IMG/VR virus record: IMGVR_UViG_3300044635_000579
Coordinates: 1-24,134 of that record
From: a virus
Reading direction: 5' to 3' (one strand)
Length of the DNA stretch: 24,134 nt
Translations under genes and position numbers: made by a program
Notes under the pieces: model-generated
Told to the model about the DNA's origin: nothing
The model's database searches: none
The model's input: only the letters and a program-made list of their open reading frames with translations
Shown: positions 6,617 to 19,512 of the stretch, one piece after another
Layout of the letters: every line of letters begins with the position of its first letter
Numbering within the stretch: the stretch's first letter is position 1

Positions 6617-6879
6617 CTATATCCCGACTTGTCGCGCGCCTCGATCTCCATCGGGTGCCGCCAGTATCCATACCGCGCCAGCCACCAGAGATACCGCGCC
6701 GTGAAGCCTAGCGCGCCGTACCGCTCGATCTGCTCTAGGTGAACCTCCTCATGCGCGACGAGCCCGTGGTCCGGTGGCCACGTCGCGTAGTAAGCGACGC
6801 GCCAGGGCATCGTGATCGCCTCGTAGCCGGTGGCGCGCAGCCACCAGCGGATGACGAGCGGGGCGGGGCGGTGTGTCAT
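6613..6879 (-). CDS. Small HExxH-containing protein, metallopeptidase-like
   Basis: An 88-residue basic, aromatic-rich protein with HEEVHLEQ (43-50), a gluzincin-style HExxH motif, followed by a WRHPMEIEAR segment (about 73-82) that could give the third Glu ligand. Small phage proteins with this combination are frequent and usually left unnamed. Whether they are active peptidases is not known. It is the last gene of the minus-strand operon and its start overlaps the previous stop by ATGA. Unlike its neighbours it lacks a clear GGAGG upstream, so it probably relies on translational coupling. Confidence 0.68.
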   Translation of the reverse strand: MTHRPAPLVIRWWLRATGYEAITMPWRVAYYATWPPDHGLVAHEEVHLEQIERYGALGFTARYLWWLARYGYWRHPMEIEARDKSGYS

Positions 6880-7094
6880 GGGGTGGCCGCATCGTGGATG
6901 ACGTACTTTTCGAAAATCCAGACGTCATCAACCCAGATCCCGGCAAACTTTTTGTCGTGCTTCTGGGCCGTGATGTAGGCGGCGCATTGTTCTGCCAACT
7001 TTCGGTCAGCATAGACCCTGTAGACCCAATCTATGGTATCCAAGTCGATGGAGCATCCCTTGATAACCACGAGCCAGACGACGTTCTTGGTCAT
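6876..7094 (-). CDS. Small hypothetical protein, paralogue A of a tandem pair
   Basis: A 72-residue protein: beta-like start (NVVWLVVIKGC), a conserved block VYRVYADRKLAEQC, then HDKKFAGIWVDDVWI and an acidic end. About 64 percent of residues are identical to the neighbouring gene at 7091-7309, with no gaps, so the pair arose by tandem duplication. The layout (strand, helix with LAEQ, terminal strand) resembles the many small alpha/beta phage proteins of the DUF7336 kind, but I cannot assign the family firmly. GC content is visibly lower than in the structural genes. ATGA overlaps link it to both neighbours. Function unknown. Confidence 0.72.
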   Translation of the reverse strand: MTKNVVWLVVIKGCSIDLDTIDWVYRVYADRKLAEQCAAYITAQKHDKKFAGIWVDDVWIFEKYVIHDAATP

Positions 7095-7106
7095 GGCTTG
7101 GCCTCC
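7091..7106 (-). repeat. Junction repeat, copy 1 (core only)
   Basis: TCATGGCTTGGCCTCC on the plus strand; on the minus strand it reads GGAGGCCAAGCCATGA, so it holds the ribosome site, the end of one gene (EAKP and stop) and the start of the next. Confidence 0.75.
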
Positions 7107-7309
7107 TCGTCTAAGACATACTCGTCTGAGATCCAGGCGTCATTAACCCAAATCCCGTCGAACTTCTTGTCGTGATTTTGGACCGCGATGTATTTGAGAC
7201 ATTGTTCTGCCAACTTTCTGTCAGCATAGACCCTGTAGACCGTCCTCCTGGTATGTCCTTCAATGAAGCATCCCTCGATGAACACCAACCAAACGACTTT
7301 CTTGGTCAT
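7091..7309 (-). CDS. Small hypothetical protein, paralogue B of a tandem pair
   Basis: A 72-residue paralogue of the gene at 6876-7094, same length, sharing the block VYRVYADRKLAEQC and the HDKKF..GIWV.D.WI segment. The differences cluster at residues 12-23 and at the C-terminus, which suggests that the central block is the constrained part. It ends in ...EEAKP, and the bases encoding that end contain the GGAGG used by the next gene, as at three other junctions in this cluster. Lower GC than the flanking head and tail genes. Function unknown. Confidence 0.72.
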   Translation of the reverse strand: MTKKVVWLVFIEGCFIEGHTRRTVYRVYADRKLAEQCLKYIAVQNHDKKFDGIWVNDAWISDEYVLDEEAKP

Positions 7310-11602: not shown

Positions 11603-11630
11603 TTGACGGGCTAAACGGCGGGTGTATCCT
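11603..11630 (+). promoter_or_regulatory. Rightward sigma70-type promoter giving a leaderless repressor mRNA
   Basis: TTGACG (11603-11608), a 16-base spacer, then TATCCT (11625-11630). The predicted start of transcription is about 11637, the A of the repressor ATG. No ribosome-binding sequence precedes that ATG, which agrees with a leaderless message as known for lambda cI from PRM. Confidence 0.62.
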
Positions 11631-11636
11631 CGCCGC

Positions 11637-11822
11637 ATGACAGTCGCTCAACTCGTTTTCCACCTCGGCGGCAACACCGCGCTCGCGCGCGTCCTCGGCA
11701 TCTCGCCACAAGCGGTGTCGAACTGGTCCCGACGCGGCGCGATCCCCGCACGTCGCCACTACCAGGTCGCGCGCCTCGCACGGGCGCTTGGCCTCCACAT
11801 CGATCCCGAGGCGCTGCGATGA
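11637..11822 (+). CDS. Cro/YdaS-type HTH repressor
   Basis: A 61-residue protein made of one helix-turn-helix domain: TALARVLGISPQAVSNWSRR at residues 14-33, followed by GAIPARRHYQVARLARALGL. The GIS.QAVSNW.RRG.IP pattern is that of small YdaS/Cro-like phage regulators, which act as dimers on operators between divergent promoters. It lies exactly at such a region. The ATG at 11637 is preferred over a GTG at 11622 because the promoter -10 box would fall inside the longer frame. The stop overlaps the next gene by ATGA. Whether it acts as CI or as Cro cannot be told. Confidence 0.82.
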   Translation: MTVAQLVFHLGGNTALARVLGISPQAVSNWSRRGAIPARRHYQVARLARALGLHIDPEALR

Positions 11823-15237: not shown

Positions 15238-17376
15238 ATGACACCGACACCGCAGACGCCGCTCGAAGCGGCGCTCGATTACTACGACCGGGGGCTGATG
15301 CCGATCCCGGTGCATCGCGTCATCGCGCATCGTGAAGGCAAGCCGATCTGCTCCTGCGGCGCGCGCGATGGCTGCGCGAGCCCAGGAAAGCACCCGACGA
15401 TGGCATGGTCGCAGTTCCAGAAGCGCCGCCCTCCTCGCGAGGAGGTGGCCGAGTGGTGGTCGGGCGACCGGGCGCGATACGGCGTCGGCATTCTGACGGG
15501 TTCGGCCAGCGGCAACATCTTCGTCCTCGACGTCGATGTCGGCCCAGGCAAGGACGGCGACGATAGCCTCCGCGCGCTCCAGCTGGCTCATGACGATCTG
15601 CCCGAGACCGCCGAGGTCAAGACCGGCGGCGGCGGGCTCCATCTATACTTCCGCGCGCCACCTGGCGTCGCCGTGGTGCGGAACAGCGCGAGCAAGCTCG
15701 GACCCGGTCTCGACATCCGAGGCGAGGGCGGCTTTGTGGTCGCGCCGCCGTCCTTCCATGCCTCGGGCCAGCCTTACGTCTGGTCCTGGACCAACACGCT
15801 GGCCGAAGGCATCGCGGATGCGCCGGCATGGCTGCTCGATCTGGTCCGCGCCGAGCCGGTGATCGGGGCGACGCCGCGAGATCGGGTTGCGTCGTCGCCG
15901 CCTGTAGCGTCTCCGGTCGGTGCCGGAAGCCTCGGGGTGCTGCCGCCGCCGGTGGAGGACGGGCGCGAGGAGTACATGCGCGACACCGTCTTCGCGGTCG
16001 CGCTGGAGTTGACCGGCCAGCATGGCGCGTGGCCTACCGCCGAGGAGGTCTACGAGATAGCCTGGCCGCAGTTCCTGCGGCGCGTCGATCTCTCGAGGCC
16101 AGGACGGATCAGCCGCGACAACGCCGAGCAGGAGATGAGGGCGAAGTGCGCGCAGATCGCCGCCAAGGCCGAAAGCGGCGGGCTGGGGCGGCTGGAGGAT
16201 GTCGTCGCGGCCTACCAGAGCAAGCGACGCGAACAGCCGCGCCAGGGGCCGGGAAATCGGCAGGAGGAGGCGGCGGGGGAGGCTCGGCAGGAACAGGCCC
16301 AGACGCCGCGACCGCCGACGCACTTCCCGCTCGTCTACTCTGACGAGATTCACGCGGGCGACGCCGCGCTCGACTTCGTCGAGGGGCTGTTGGTCGAGGG
16401 CGGGATGTCGGTCTGGTACGGCGACAGCAATGTGGGCAAGACATTCGCCCTCCTCGACGTCGCCATCCATGTCGCCCTCGGGCGTCCGTGGCGCGGGCGC
16501 GAGGTCGATCAAGGCGCGGTGGTCTATTGCGCGCTGGAGGGTATCGCCGGCATCAGGAACCGTATCGCCGCCTGGCTCAAGCACTACGGGATCACGCCGG
16601 ATCGCCGCGCTCTGCCTCTGGTGGTCATCCCCTCGGCCATCAACATGCTCGATCCCCAGGCCGATGTGCCGGGGCTGATCCAGTCGGTTCAAGCCGCCGA
16701 GGCTGAACTCGGACGGTCAGTGAAGATGCTCTGCCTCGACACGCTCAGTCGCGCGCTGGCCGGCGGGAACGAGAACTCTCCCGAGGACATGGGCGCGCTG
16801 GTCCGGTCATCGGACCTCGTCCGGCAGACCACCGGATCGCACCTAGCCTATGTCCACCATTCGGGAAAAGACACTGCCAAGGGCGCGCGCGGGCATTCGC
16901 TGCTCCGCGCGGCCACCGACACCGAGATCGAGATCAGCCGCGCTGAAGGATCGGAGGTCTCGGTGATGCGGGTGACAAAGCAGCGCGAGCTTGAGAGCGG
17001 TGACGACGTGGCCTTCCGGCTGGAGGTCGTCACCCTCGGGGTCAACCGTAGGGGCAAGCCGCTGACCAGCTGCGTCGCGGTCGAGGCTGATGCGCCGCCG
17101 GAACCCGAGCGGCGTGGTCGCATCAGCGGAGCACCGGCAATCGCGAGGCAAGCCCTTGAGGCATGCCTAGCCGAGAGCGGGACAAGGACGACGCGGAGCA
17201 ATGTCCCGCCGAATGTCCCGGTTGTCCCGGTCGAGATGTGGAGGCGCAAGGCATACGAAATTGGCATCTCAACAGGCGACGCCGAGGCAAAGAAGAAGGC
17301 GTTCCAAAGGGCCACCGTAAGTCTCGTCAGTGCCAAAATCGCCGCAATCAGCGATGACGTGGCGTGGCTATGTTGA
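15238..17376 (+). CDS. Primase-polymerase / RepA-type helicase fusion
   Basis: A 712-residue replication protein. The N-terminal bifunctional primase-polymerase domain (about 1-200) has GKHPTMAW, GILTGSASGNIFVLDVDV with D98 and D100, the metal-binding pair, and KTGGGGLHLYFRAP. A helical linker (about 240-360) leads to a RecA-like helicase domain of the RepA/AAA_25 kind, with Walker A GDSNVGKT (395-402), Walker B MLCLDTLSRA ending near D501, and YVHHSGKD, a sensor-like motif. Such fusions prime and unwind at phage and plasmid origins. AGGAGG is seven bases before the ATG. The C-terminal stretch NVPPNVPVVPV is encoded by repeats of the iteron-like CGGGACA motif seen right after the gene. Confidence 0.9.
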   Translation: MTPTPQTPLEAALDYYDRGLMPIPVHRVIAHREGKPICSCGARDGCASPGKHPTMAWSQFQKRRPPREEVAEWWSGDRARYGVGILTGSASGNIFVLDVDVGPGKDGDDSLRALQLAHDDLPETAEVKTGGGGLHLYFRAPPGVAVVRNSASKLGPGLDIRGEGGFVVAPPSFHASGQPYVWSWTNTLAEGIADAPAWLLDLVRAEPVIGATPRDRVASSPPVASPVGAGSLGVLPPPVEDGREEYMRDTVFAVALELTGQHGAWPTAEEVYEIAWPQFLRRVDLSRPGRISRDNAEQEMRAKCAQIAAKAESGGLGRLEDVVAAYQSKRREQPRQGPGNRQEEAAGEARQEQAQTPRPPTHFPLVYSDEIHAGDAALDFVEGLLVEGGMSVWYGDSNVGKTFALLDVAIHVALGRPWRGREVDQGAVVYCALEGIAGIRNRIAAWLKHYGITPDRRALPLVVIPSAINMLDPQADVPGLIQSVQAAEAELGRSVKMLCLDTLSRALAGGNENSPEDMGALVRSSDLVRQTTGSHLAYVHHSGKDTAKGARGHSLLRAATDTEIEISRAEGSEVSVMRVTKQRELESGDDVAFRLEVVTLGVNRRGKPLTSCVAVEADAPPEPERRGRISGAPAIARQALEACLAESGTRTTRSNVPPNVPVVPVEMWRRKAYEIGISTGDAEAKKKAFQRATVSLVSAKIAAISDDVAWLC
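17178..17229. repeat. CGGGACA repeats inside the 3' end of the primase-helicase gene
   Basis: One direct copy of CGGGACA (17178-17184) and three inverted copies, TGTCCCG (17202-17208, 17214-17220, 17223-17229), lie within the coding sequence and encode the NVPPNVPVVPV stretch. Spacings are 12 and 9 bases. They carry the same core as the intergenic array 150 bases downstream and may belong to one functional region. Confidence 0.65.
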
Positions 17377-17377
17377 C

Positions 17378-17480
17378 CGGGACAAATCGGGACAAATCGG
17401 GACATGTCCCGTTTCGCAAAATGTCCCGTTACCGGGACATATCGGGACATATCCCTTTAGGGATGTCCCGATATGTCCCG
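17378..17480. repeat. Phased iteron-like array, candidate replication origin or operator
   Basis: Nine copies of the 7-mer CGGGACA or its complement fall in 103 bases. Direct: 17378, 17388, 17398, 17433, 17443. Inverted: TGTCCCG at 17405, 17422, 17464, 17474. Copies at 17378/17388/17398, 17433/17443 and 17464/17474 are exactly 10 bases apart, one helical turn, so bound proteins would line up on one face. 17398-17411 is the perfect palindrome CGGGACATGTCCCG. 17433-17456 and 17460-17480 form a large near-perfect inverted repeat about TTTAGGG. The location just after the primase-helicase is typical of origins. Confidence 0.8.
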
Positions 17481-17500
17481 ATGACATTGACGGAGGACAG

Positions 17501-18034
17501 ATGAAGAGCGTTTCTGACTACTCCCTCGCCAAAGCCATCCTCGACGGCGTCGACGAAACCATCGCCGCGTCCGAGCGACGGTGGGGCGCGGACCGCCTCC
17601 GGCTCCTGGTCGCTGACGACCTCCGAGCACGGTGGGACCGTCAGTGGCAGTCCTGGTGTCGGGCGGTCGAGGCCAACGACCTCGGCGGCATCCAGAAGCA
17701 CGGCGCGGCGGTCCGGCGGGCGGTCGCCGCACTCGAGGCGGCAGCGGCCGCTGCCGGGGCCGAGCCGCTTGCGCCGGTGGTCTGGGAGGCGACCTACGAG
17801 GGCCGGGTGATCGCGGTGGCGCGAACGAGTGCCGAGGCGTATGCCGTGGCGACACAGGGGCGGGGCGTCGAAGTCTGGACGCTAGACGAGCTTGTGCGCG
17901 TCGCCCTGCCGAGGACCGCGATGATCGCGGCGGCGAAGGAGGTGTTCCCTGGGGCCGAGGTCGTCTCCTACAAGTCGCCGCCGACTGACTGGGCAAGCGG
18001 TGGCGATCCGCTGCCTGATTTCATGACTGCCTGA
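17501..18034 (+). CDS. Hypothetical protein next to the iteron array
   Basis: A 177-residue protein, MKSVSDYSLAKAILDGVDET..., with helical N-terminal half (DRLRLLVADDLRARWDRQWQSWCRAVEANDLGGIQKHGAAVRRAVAALEAAA as a run of helices, about 30-85) and a mixed C-terminal half (VVWEATYEGRVIAVARTSAEAYAVAT..., VEVWTLDELVRVAL). The start is set by GGAGG five bases before ATG 17501; the frame stays open through the repeat array to 17330, but that is a by-product of the repeats. Family not recognised. Because it follows the array it may be controlled by what binds there, or itself be the binder; no HTH is clear. Confidence 0.68.
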   Translation: MKSVSDYSLAKAILDGVDETIAASERRWGADRLRLLVADDLRARWDRQWQSWCRAVEANDLGGIQKHGAAVRRAVAALEAAAAAAGAEPLAPVVWEATYEGRVIAVARTSAEAYAVATQGRGVEVWTLDELVRVALPRTAMIAAAKEVFPGAEVVSYKSPPTDWASGGDPLPDFMTA

Positions 18035-18631: not shown

Positions 18632-18705
18632 CCAAGACGGCACGCTTGACCCGGCGGCGGCGACACCCTACCCTATCCGGTATGATGCGCGAGGCGCGCC
18701 GATGA
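18628..18705 (+). CDS. Possible 25-residue bridging peptide
   Basis: ATG 18628 overlaps the DUF6456-like stop by ATGA, and the frame ends at 18705 where its stop overlaps the HNH start by ATGA. The peptide, MTKTARLTRRRRHPTLSGMM..., is strongly basic. The double overlap suggests that ribosomes reinitiate across it, so it may be a coupling element rather than a functional peptide. Confidence 0.4.
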   Translation: MTKTARLTRRRRHPTLSGMMREARR

Positions 18706-19013
18706 AGACGGTGGGCCAGCCCCTACGAGGGCAAGCGCGACGGACCCTGACGACGGTGGTCGAGGGTCGAGATAGCTACTACGACAGCGTCGAGCACCGG
18801 GCCTGGAGCCGCGAGGTACTGCGCCGCGCGGCCGGGATGTGCGCCAGCTGCGGCGCGCTAGATCGGCGACTGGTCGCGGACCACCGCGTTGAGATCCGCG
18901 ATGGCGGCTCGAGGACGGACCCTGGCAACGGGCAAGCCCTATGCTCGCCCTGCCACGGTCGAAAGACGGCGGCGACGAGAACAAAGCGGCACTCAAGCGT
19001 TAACGTCGGTTGA
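18702..19013 (+). CDS. HNH endonuclease
   Basis: A 103-residue protein with a complete HNH/zinc motif: CASC (47-50), ADHRVEI with D60-H61, the central N76 in GNGQALC, and CSPCH (81-85), followed by a basic C-terminus. The Cys pairs hold a structural zinc and the His/Asn residues bind the catalytic metal in this family. HNH proteins beside the terminase genes of HK97-type cos phages assist terminase in cutting the packaging site, and that is the likely role here. The gene ends just before a non-coding G-rich segment and TerS. Confidence 0.85.
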   Translation: MKTVGQPLRGQARRTLTTVVEGRDSYYDSVEHRAWSREVLRRAAGMCASCGALDRRLVADHRVEIRDGGSRTDPGNGQALCSPCHGRKTAATRTKRHSSVNVG

Positions 19014-19200
19014 AAGCGACCCGAAACAGGCGTTTAACTGGCCCTTTCTGCCTATGGGGTAGGGGGTGTTAATGTTTGGGGCCTGGGGACGCGCAATGCA
19101 CAGGGGGCCACCCAGAGACTTTTCCGCCTGGGTAGAGGTTAACGCCAGGCGCTGTAGGGCCAAAACAGGCGATATTTTCAACATTTCGGAGCGAAAACAC
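19014..19200. other. 187-base non-coding segment, candidate packaging (cos/pac) region
   Basis: No convincing gene is present between the HNH stop and the TerS ATG. It holds four G-runs close together, GGGG 19056-19059, GGGGG 19062-19066, GGGG 19078-19081, GGGG 19085-19088, plus another at 19103-19107. AAACAGGCG occurs twice, near 19024 and 19172, and GGCGTTTAAC near 19029 is almost inverted in GTTAACGCC near 19138. Non-coding DNA between HNH and TerS is the usual place for cos in HK97-type phages. GGAG about ten bases upstream serves TerS. Confidence 0.45.
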
Positions 19201-19512
19201 ATGCCACGCGGCGGATACCGACCCGGCGGCAGCGGGCCGCAGCCAGGATCGGGGCGTCCGAAGAAGGGCGAGCAGCCGGTCGCCAAGATGGTGCTGACCG
19301 AATCCATGCTCATCGGCATGTCGCCGCTGGAATACATGCTCTCGGTCATGCGCGACCAGTCCGCCGACGCGGCGCGTCGGGACAGGATGGCGCAGTGCGC
19401 CGCGCCCTACGTCCACGCTCGGGCCGAGGCGACCGGTAAGAAGGCTCAGGCCGAAGAAATCGCGGCGACCGCCGAACGCGGCACCGACTGGGAGCAGCTG
19501 CTGGCGAACTGA
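19201..19512 (+). CDS. Terminase small subunit
   Basis: A 103-residue protein. The N-terminus MPRGGYRPGGSGPQPGSGRP is the basic, Gly-rich GGYRPG.GRPK motif typical of small terminase and related phage DNA-binding proteins. Residues 35-60 (MVLTESMLIGMSPLEYMLSVMRD) and the following helix (RRDRMAQCAAPYVHARA) form the oligomerisation-type helices of the family. TerS recognises the packaging site and regulates TerL. The ATG at 19201 follows a modest GGAG; upstream in-frame starts run into the non-coding G-rich segment and are rejected. One-base overlap with TerL. Confidence 0.8.
   Translation: MPRGGYRPGGSGPQPGSGRPKKGEQPVAKMVLTESMLIGMSPLEYMLSVMRDQSADAARRDRMAQCAAPYVHARAEATGKKAQAEEIAATAERGTDWEQLLAN

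Follow-up and report, generated by a model that had tools for sequence, protein, structure and literature searches.

An iteron array directly after a phage primase-helicase gene, a probable replication origin that changes together with the winged helix of the enzyme

An array of 7-bp repeats directly downstream of a phage primase-helicase gene is very probably the initiator-binding part of a replication origin, recognized by the primase-helicase's own C-terminal winged helix. This reading draws on the position and statistics of the array, its dyad, the predicted winged helix, and the co-variation and co-transfer of the repeats with that domain, all observed in the sequences described below. 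The window, which is the whole virus record, is a linear fragment of 24,134 bases. The features considered here are as follows.

15238 to 17376, plus strand: primase-helicase/initiator gene, with PrimPol at residues 12-198, a RepA-like AAA_25 helicase at about 374-546, and the C-terminal winged helix at about 625-712
17110 to 17373, plus strand: coding region of the C-terminal winged helix (AlphaFold2), the proposed iteron reader
17281 to 17331, plus strand: proposed recognition helix a3, AEAKKKAFQRATVSLVS, residues 682-698 (AlphaFold2 and the protein windows that track the repeat)
17178 to 17184, plus strand: in-gene iteron 1
17202 to 17208, minus strand: in-gene iteron 2
17214 to 17220, minus strand: in-gene iteron 3
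17223 to 17229, minus strand: in-gene iteron 4
17378 to 17480, unstranded: nine-copy iteron array, the proposed replication origin
Iterons of the array with their strands: 17378+, 17388+, 17398+, 17405-, 17422-, 17433+, 17443+, 17464-, 17474-
17398 to 17411, unstranded: perfect palindrome CGGGACATGTCCCG, two abutting convergent iterons
17428 to 17485, unstranded: large dyad, in which inverted arms of 23 nt enclose the core palindrome
17453 to 17462, unstranded: constant core palindrome CCCTTTAGGG, between the facing iterons 17443+ and 17464-
17080 to 17500, unstranded: exchange cassette of winged-helix coding region and array, unalignable in loci L010, L011, L013, and L017

The record of 24,134 bases contains 18 copies of the repeat CGGGACA, counted together with its complement TGTCCCG, where 4.3 copies were expected, and no shuffled sequence reached 18. 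Thirteen exact copies lie within positions 17178 to 17480, and nine of these fall in the 103 bp past the gene (17378 to 17480), as an earlier note made from the sequence alone had counted. This clustering exceeds chance: among 1,000 first-order Markov resamples, the maximum in any 303-bp span was 3 copies, compared with the 13 observed. It is the densest and strongest 7-mer cluster of the record, in agreement with the note's remark that no second one was seen, and the copies outside it (at 516, 1395, 13260, 19378, and 19692) are scattered singly, as described there. The palindrome that the note had placed at 17398 to 17411 is present and perfect, and the large inverted repeat that it had reported is also found, with arms at 17428 to 17450 and 17463 to 17485 (91%). 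Exact 10-bp phasing, another of its claims, holds for the window (17378/88/98, 17433/43, and 17464/74) but is not a rule; across loci, the spacing of same-strand iterons peaks at 9 to 10 bp (175 of 374).

The N-terminal domain of the protein encoded at 15238 to 17376 is a PrimPol (Pfam PF09250, E = 2e-37). Its helicase is a RepA-like AAA_25 domain (Pfam PF13481, E = 6e-37), and the nearest solved chain to this part is RSF1010 RepA (1g8y, phmmer E = 1.2e-4). No Pfam or NCBIfam family matched the C-terminal approximately 90 residues, and Pfam detected no RepA_N DNA-binding domain in the whole protein. With an alignment of 43 relatives, AlphaFold2 predicted a C-terminal winged helix with a mean pLDDT of 87 and the order a1-b1-a2-a3-b2-b3. 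The different C-terminal domain of locus L021 was likewise predicted to have a winged-helix-like fold (pLDDT of 78). Structure searches with the winged helix identified only the general winged-helix fold; Foldseek gave nothing below an E value of 0.1, and VIA-align matched it to many winged-helix domains at Z scores of about 8. P4 alpha and RepC were not among the structure matches listed, an absence that excludes nothing. When the C-terminal domain was sought in proteins that are not helicases, such as an origin-aimed nuclease, there was no match in phages, and the only match in plasmids was a helicase.

The earlier note had pointed to the same intergenic spot in related phages, and there an array follows the helicase stop codon in most of 101 non-redundant loci. 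A first set of 79 viral and 20 genome loci was retrieved with the primase-helicase of the window, and a second set was retrieved with the proteins of phage 16-3, CRP-831, and Caenibius. In the first set, the densest 7-mer cluster mostly starts at the helicase stop codon. CGGGACA recurs in many of these loci, even at 25 to 46% helicase identity. Others carry TCCGACA, GGGGACA, CCGGACA, GGAGACA, CGAAACA, CGTGACA, CGCAACA, CATCACA, GTGCGGA, or TGCTCCA, and the majority of iteron words end in ACA. The second set behaved in the same way and added further repeat words. Under a strict rule, which demands at least five copies and more than in any other span of the locus, 73 of the 101 loci have the array directly after the helicase stop; several of those that fail the rule have in-gene arrays or smaller ones of 3 or 4 copies. 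In certain relatives with other C termini (L082, L094, L108, L111, and L113), no array was seen, which counts against the reading. Upstream of the helicase gene in L060, L063, L047, and L042, 5.8 to 8.7 kb before its stop codon, there are other strong clusters of 7-mers, such as ATCTGGC and AATAGGC, that are unrelated to the iterons.

Named replicons, among them the isolated phages 16-3, RHph_N65, and CRP-831, have the same layout. The Rhizobium phages 16-3 and RHph_X2_25 carry 14 to 15 copies of CGTGACA; the words are GCGGAGA in RHph_N65, TTTATAC in Roseobacter phage CRP-831, TGCGGAA in plasmid Caenibius p1, and CGCAACA in plasmid M. currus unnamed4. Both plasmids are complete circles that carry phage genes, and no second initiator appears in the annotation of either. 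In M. currus a separate gene encodes a Toprim primase, and therefore the array goes with the helicase-winged helix portion rather than with PrimPol.

The identity of the repeat is best predicted by the C-terminal domain. Among 43 proteins, 20-residue windows from residues 669 to 685 distinguished pairs with the same repeat from pairs with different repeats at an AUC of 0.90 to 0.93, compared with a mean of 0.49 for helicase windows of the same proteins. C-terminal windows were again the best in the second set, at 0.97, versus a helicase mean of 0.89; this set alone would not decide the matter because its helicase tracks the repeat too. On these comparisons, repeat identity appears to follow the winged helix and not the enzyme domains.

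Exchanges between close relatives point in the same direction. Locus L010 is 95% identical to the window in PrimPol and identical at 231 of 231 helicase positions, versus 13 to 18% in the winged helix, and its repeat is TCCGACA in place of CGGGACA; winged helix and array have been replaced as one cassette of approximately 420 bp. DNA alignments of L010, L011, L013, and L017 with the window show flanks that are mostly 80 to 100% identical around an unalignable block at about 17080 to 17500. Such blocks within similar flanks indicate that winged helix and array were exchanged together. In L021, L022, L025, and L032 the replaced block begins at about 16270, and therefore the helicase was included in the exchange. 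The L021 helicase is 23% identical to that of the window in alignment A1, which agrees with the DNA profile but not with a tblastn match that extends to residue 544, and because of this disagreement the exact left border of the larger exchange is uncertain. The converse case is provided by L102 and L104, which have helicases that are 27% identical, the same EAKKKAFQRA helix, and the same CGGGACA repeat. Gene 17501 to 18034 on the plus strand (MKSVSDYSLAKAILDGVDE.., no known family) is kept in close relatives across cassette exchanges and is therefore not the determinant of repeat type.

Smaller changes are also paired. The helicases of L177 and L181 are identical over the compared span, and all nine aligned iterons differ by the same single base, GTAACA in L177 and GTACCA in L181. 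The protein differences fall within the recognition helix and immediately ahead of it, with TTNN-KRQ in L177 and TATN-KRQ in L181. Within this clade, KRQ accompanies CGTACCA in L179 to L181, which are close relatives with full arrays, and in L182, and KSQ or KNQ accompanies NATACCA. Another switch of this kind is seen in L173 and L175. These paired switches of helix and iteron suggest a readable code, drawn from few independent events. Natural swaps and co-variation together argue that the C-terminal domain sets iteron specificity. Co-variation of this kind shows a functional pair, although the two partners might conceivably serve a function different from initiation.

The iteron word is hypervariable, whereas a palindrome, CCCTWWAGGG, between facing iterons is constant. 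In the window it is CCCTTTAGGG, at the center of the large inverted repeat and the most conserved element of all; the earlier note had passed over it. Counted with a fixed pattern, CCCTWWAGGG occurs once after the stop codon in 38 of the 101 loci (0.84 per kb), versus 0.003 per kb (3 matches) elsewhere in all loci; control palindromes of like composition occurred 0 to 2 times in the rest of the loci. Many loci without the exact palindrome carry near variants, for example, CCTATAGG, CCCCTTATGGGG, or CTATAG. When the loci were aligned on the dyad, two facing iterons flanked CCCTWWAGGG, each within a few bases of it, irrespective of the iteron word, and the bases next outward paired more often than in shuffled flanks (4.29 versus 2.89 of 9, standard deviation of 0.23). 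A literature search found no paper in which GGGACA repeats act as the origin of a phage, and a free-text search for CCCTTTAGGG gave only unrelated papers among the matches listed. The constant palindrome would represent an initiation step for which no study was found.

Four copies of the repeat lie inside the gene, as the earlier note had reported, but the peptide NVPPNVPVVPV that it assigned to them is encoded by only three (17202 to 17229); the copy at 17178 instead specifies a portion of SGT. In the winged helix, the in-gene iterons correspond to the loop that connects a1 to b1. In L009, L031, and L038 the four copies are unchanged (0 of 84 positions, versus 60 of 816 in the rest of the region; P = 0.004). 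With the repeat word defined only from DNA downstream of the gene, the density of a locus's own word was 1.43 per kb over the final 300 nt of the coding sequence, compared with 0.12 over the remaining coding sequence; for foreign words the value was 0.10. The note's suggestion that the C terminus has been shaped by DNA-level selection is consistent with the conservation in this clade, but only a minority of loci (7 of 86) have two or more in-gene copies of the own word, and the suggestion is supported without being proved because protein constraint could contribute. In L101, L086, L100, and L035 the 3' end of the helicase gene extends through part of the array, and therefore iterons and palindrome are translated; the peptide GHTPIGVSRVP is common to L101 (Deltaproteobacteria) and L086 (Roseomonas).

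We infer from these patterns how binding, helicase loading, and origin firing might proceed, and what the palindrome may do. The C-terminal winged helix of the PrimPol-helicase would bind the 7-bp iterons, with the recognition helix reading the variable bases at their start and a less variable portion of the domain reading the ACA ending. The spacing of 9 to 10 bp would set monomers on one face of the DNA. Several protein copies would thereby be placed on the iterons, and the two facing sets that flank CCCTWWAGGG may load helicase rings toward the dyad, where duplex opening and PrimPol priming would take place. The initiator would load itself just after its own gene, at a site that in some clades reaches into the gene. 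GC skew, for which the earlier note had proposed an inflection at the array, gave a mixed outcome and is not counted as support. Of four complete genomes, Caenibius p1 has its skew minimum close to the array, at 0.8 kb; the distance in the other three is 4.7 to 13.7 kb, and in the window the cumulative minimum is at 15436, near the start of the primase-helicase gene and 1.9 kb upstream of the array.

The earlier note had offered an origin and an autoregulatory operator as alternatives. An operator or attenuator would bind a repressor or form an RNA hairpin, controlling gene 17501 to 18034 or autoregulating the primase-helicase. The array is just upstream of that gene, and RNA from 17376 to 17500 folds far more stably than shuffled sequences (z = -6.4). 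However, the folding is no discriminator because any set of inverted repeats folds stably. The array adjoins the 3' end of the helicase gene, and the next gene is on the opposite strand in phage 16-3, RHph_N65, and the Xanthobacter plasmid, which is evidence against an operator for that gene. Furthermore, the downstream gene varies between families, and the array follows the winged helix. A scan for promoter-like or terminator-like sites found none. Control of this type is quite unlikely, and the origin alternative of the note gained from array position, co-variation, co-transfer, and the plasmids.

Iteron-like arrays also serve in partition, and a terminase small-subunit-like gene lies 1.6 kb downstream, so the array might be a partition or incompatibility site (parS/centromere-like) or a packaging site rather than an origin. 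This is very unlikely; the array co-varies with the helicase domain and not with ParB or terminase, and its distance from terminase differs widely among relatives. Slippage can create short repeats close together, and it is conceivable that a functionless array is kept by slippage or mobile repeats, its likeness among relatives reflecting descent. We consider this extremely improbable. The copies are on both strands at positions that are irregular yet conserved, the nine aligned copies of L177 and L181 share one switch, the iterons vary less than the spacers (2 of 185 versus 15 of 179), and unrelated motifs occupy the same place in different clades.

The proposed origin has several known counterparts. 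The self-loading helicases SaPI Rep and SCCmec Cch2 use a C-terminal domain to recognize short repeats that directly follow their genes (PMC7581432). The window likewise has short repeats directly downstream of a helicase gene and a C-terminal domain as the putative reader, but its helicase is RSF1010-RepA-like AAA_25 fused to PrimPol, not of the SaPI Rep/Cch class, and 7-bp cores surround a constant CCCTWWAGGG palindrome. RSF1010 has iterons, a primase, and an oriV with stem-loop elements (ssiA/ssiB) (PMC4234260). A homologous RepA-type helicase (1g8y, PF13481), iterons, a primase, and stem-loop elements at the origin are shared with the IncQ/RSF1010 RepA-RepB'-RepC system; in contrast, the three functions are in one chain here, with a different primase family and different repeats. 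Neither a RepC-like separate protein nor a separate RepB' primase was recognized, PrimPol and winged helix being in one chain. Phage P4 alpha is a single chain that binds origin repeats and unites a Toprim-type primase and a helicase with a winged helix at the C terminus (PMC4234260). The architecture is similar, but the window protein has PrimPol (PF09250) and AAA_25 (PF13481) and no Toprim-type primase. ORF904 of pRN1 has an archaeo-eukaryotic primase, a helicase, and a C-terminal winged helix, and its origin, a large stem-loop without iterons, is just downstream of the gene (PMC4234260). It resembles the window in its AEP-type PrimPol (PF09250), helicase, winged helix, and origin position, whereas it differs in having an SF3 helicase and an iteron-free stem-loop instead of AAA_25 and iterons.

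In the Vibrio PLE, the DNA-binding domain of RepA and the origin are swapped as a cognate module, and the ICP1 nuclease Odn, which mimics RepA and cuts the PLE origin, may favor such exchange (PMC8263062). A DNA-binding domain and an origin swap as one module in the window's relatives also. However, the PLE initiator is of the RepA_N type, with an N-terminal DNA-binding domain and semi-palindromic iterons of approximately 30 bp, and no helicase is fused to RepA in the PMC8263062 account. The window system would work like the SaPI, P4, or IncQ origins and belongs to none of them. It unites such features in a different family of helicases, extends the exchange to phages, and has the constant palindrome in addition. 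By analogy with PLE, a similar selective cause, either origin-aimed competitors or incompatibility, is plausible.

We give about even weight to a broader proposal, that array and cognate winged helix form a widespread class of origin, previously unnamed, in phages and phage-plasmids. Its specificity would be labile (through cassette exchange and concerted one-base switches of all iterons), and its CCCTWWAGGG loading or priming site would be constant and common to helicase-initiators whose partner primase is PrimPol, Toprim, or unassigned. Competitors that target origins, or incompatibility, would probably have driven the diversification of this class. An origin and a specificity domain are indicated for a large, mostly unannotated group of phages and phage-plasmids that includes the long-studied Rhizobium phage 16-3, and compatibility of replicons might be predicted from iteron types. 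How a protein and its sites change jointly has long been a problem for studies of the evolution of DNA recognition. These loci offer a natural series for it, with changes in protein and DNA that are paired down to the level of single bases and in which a DNA-binding protein and approximately 10 sites appear to change together.

Other features of the window were also noted. An HNH endonuclease gene and then a terminase-small-subunit-like gene occupy 18639 to 19512 on the plus strand; the packaging module starts 1.1 to 1.6 kb past the array. A Cro/YdaS-like helix-turn-helix protein is encoded at 11622 to 11819 on the plus strand, likely in the phage's own control region. The neighboring small open reading frames at 6876 to 7094 and 7091 to 7309 on the minus strand are a gene duplicated in tandem, with products that resemble each other (..VYRVYADRKLAEQC..).
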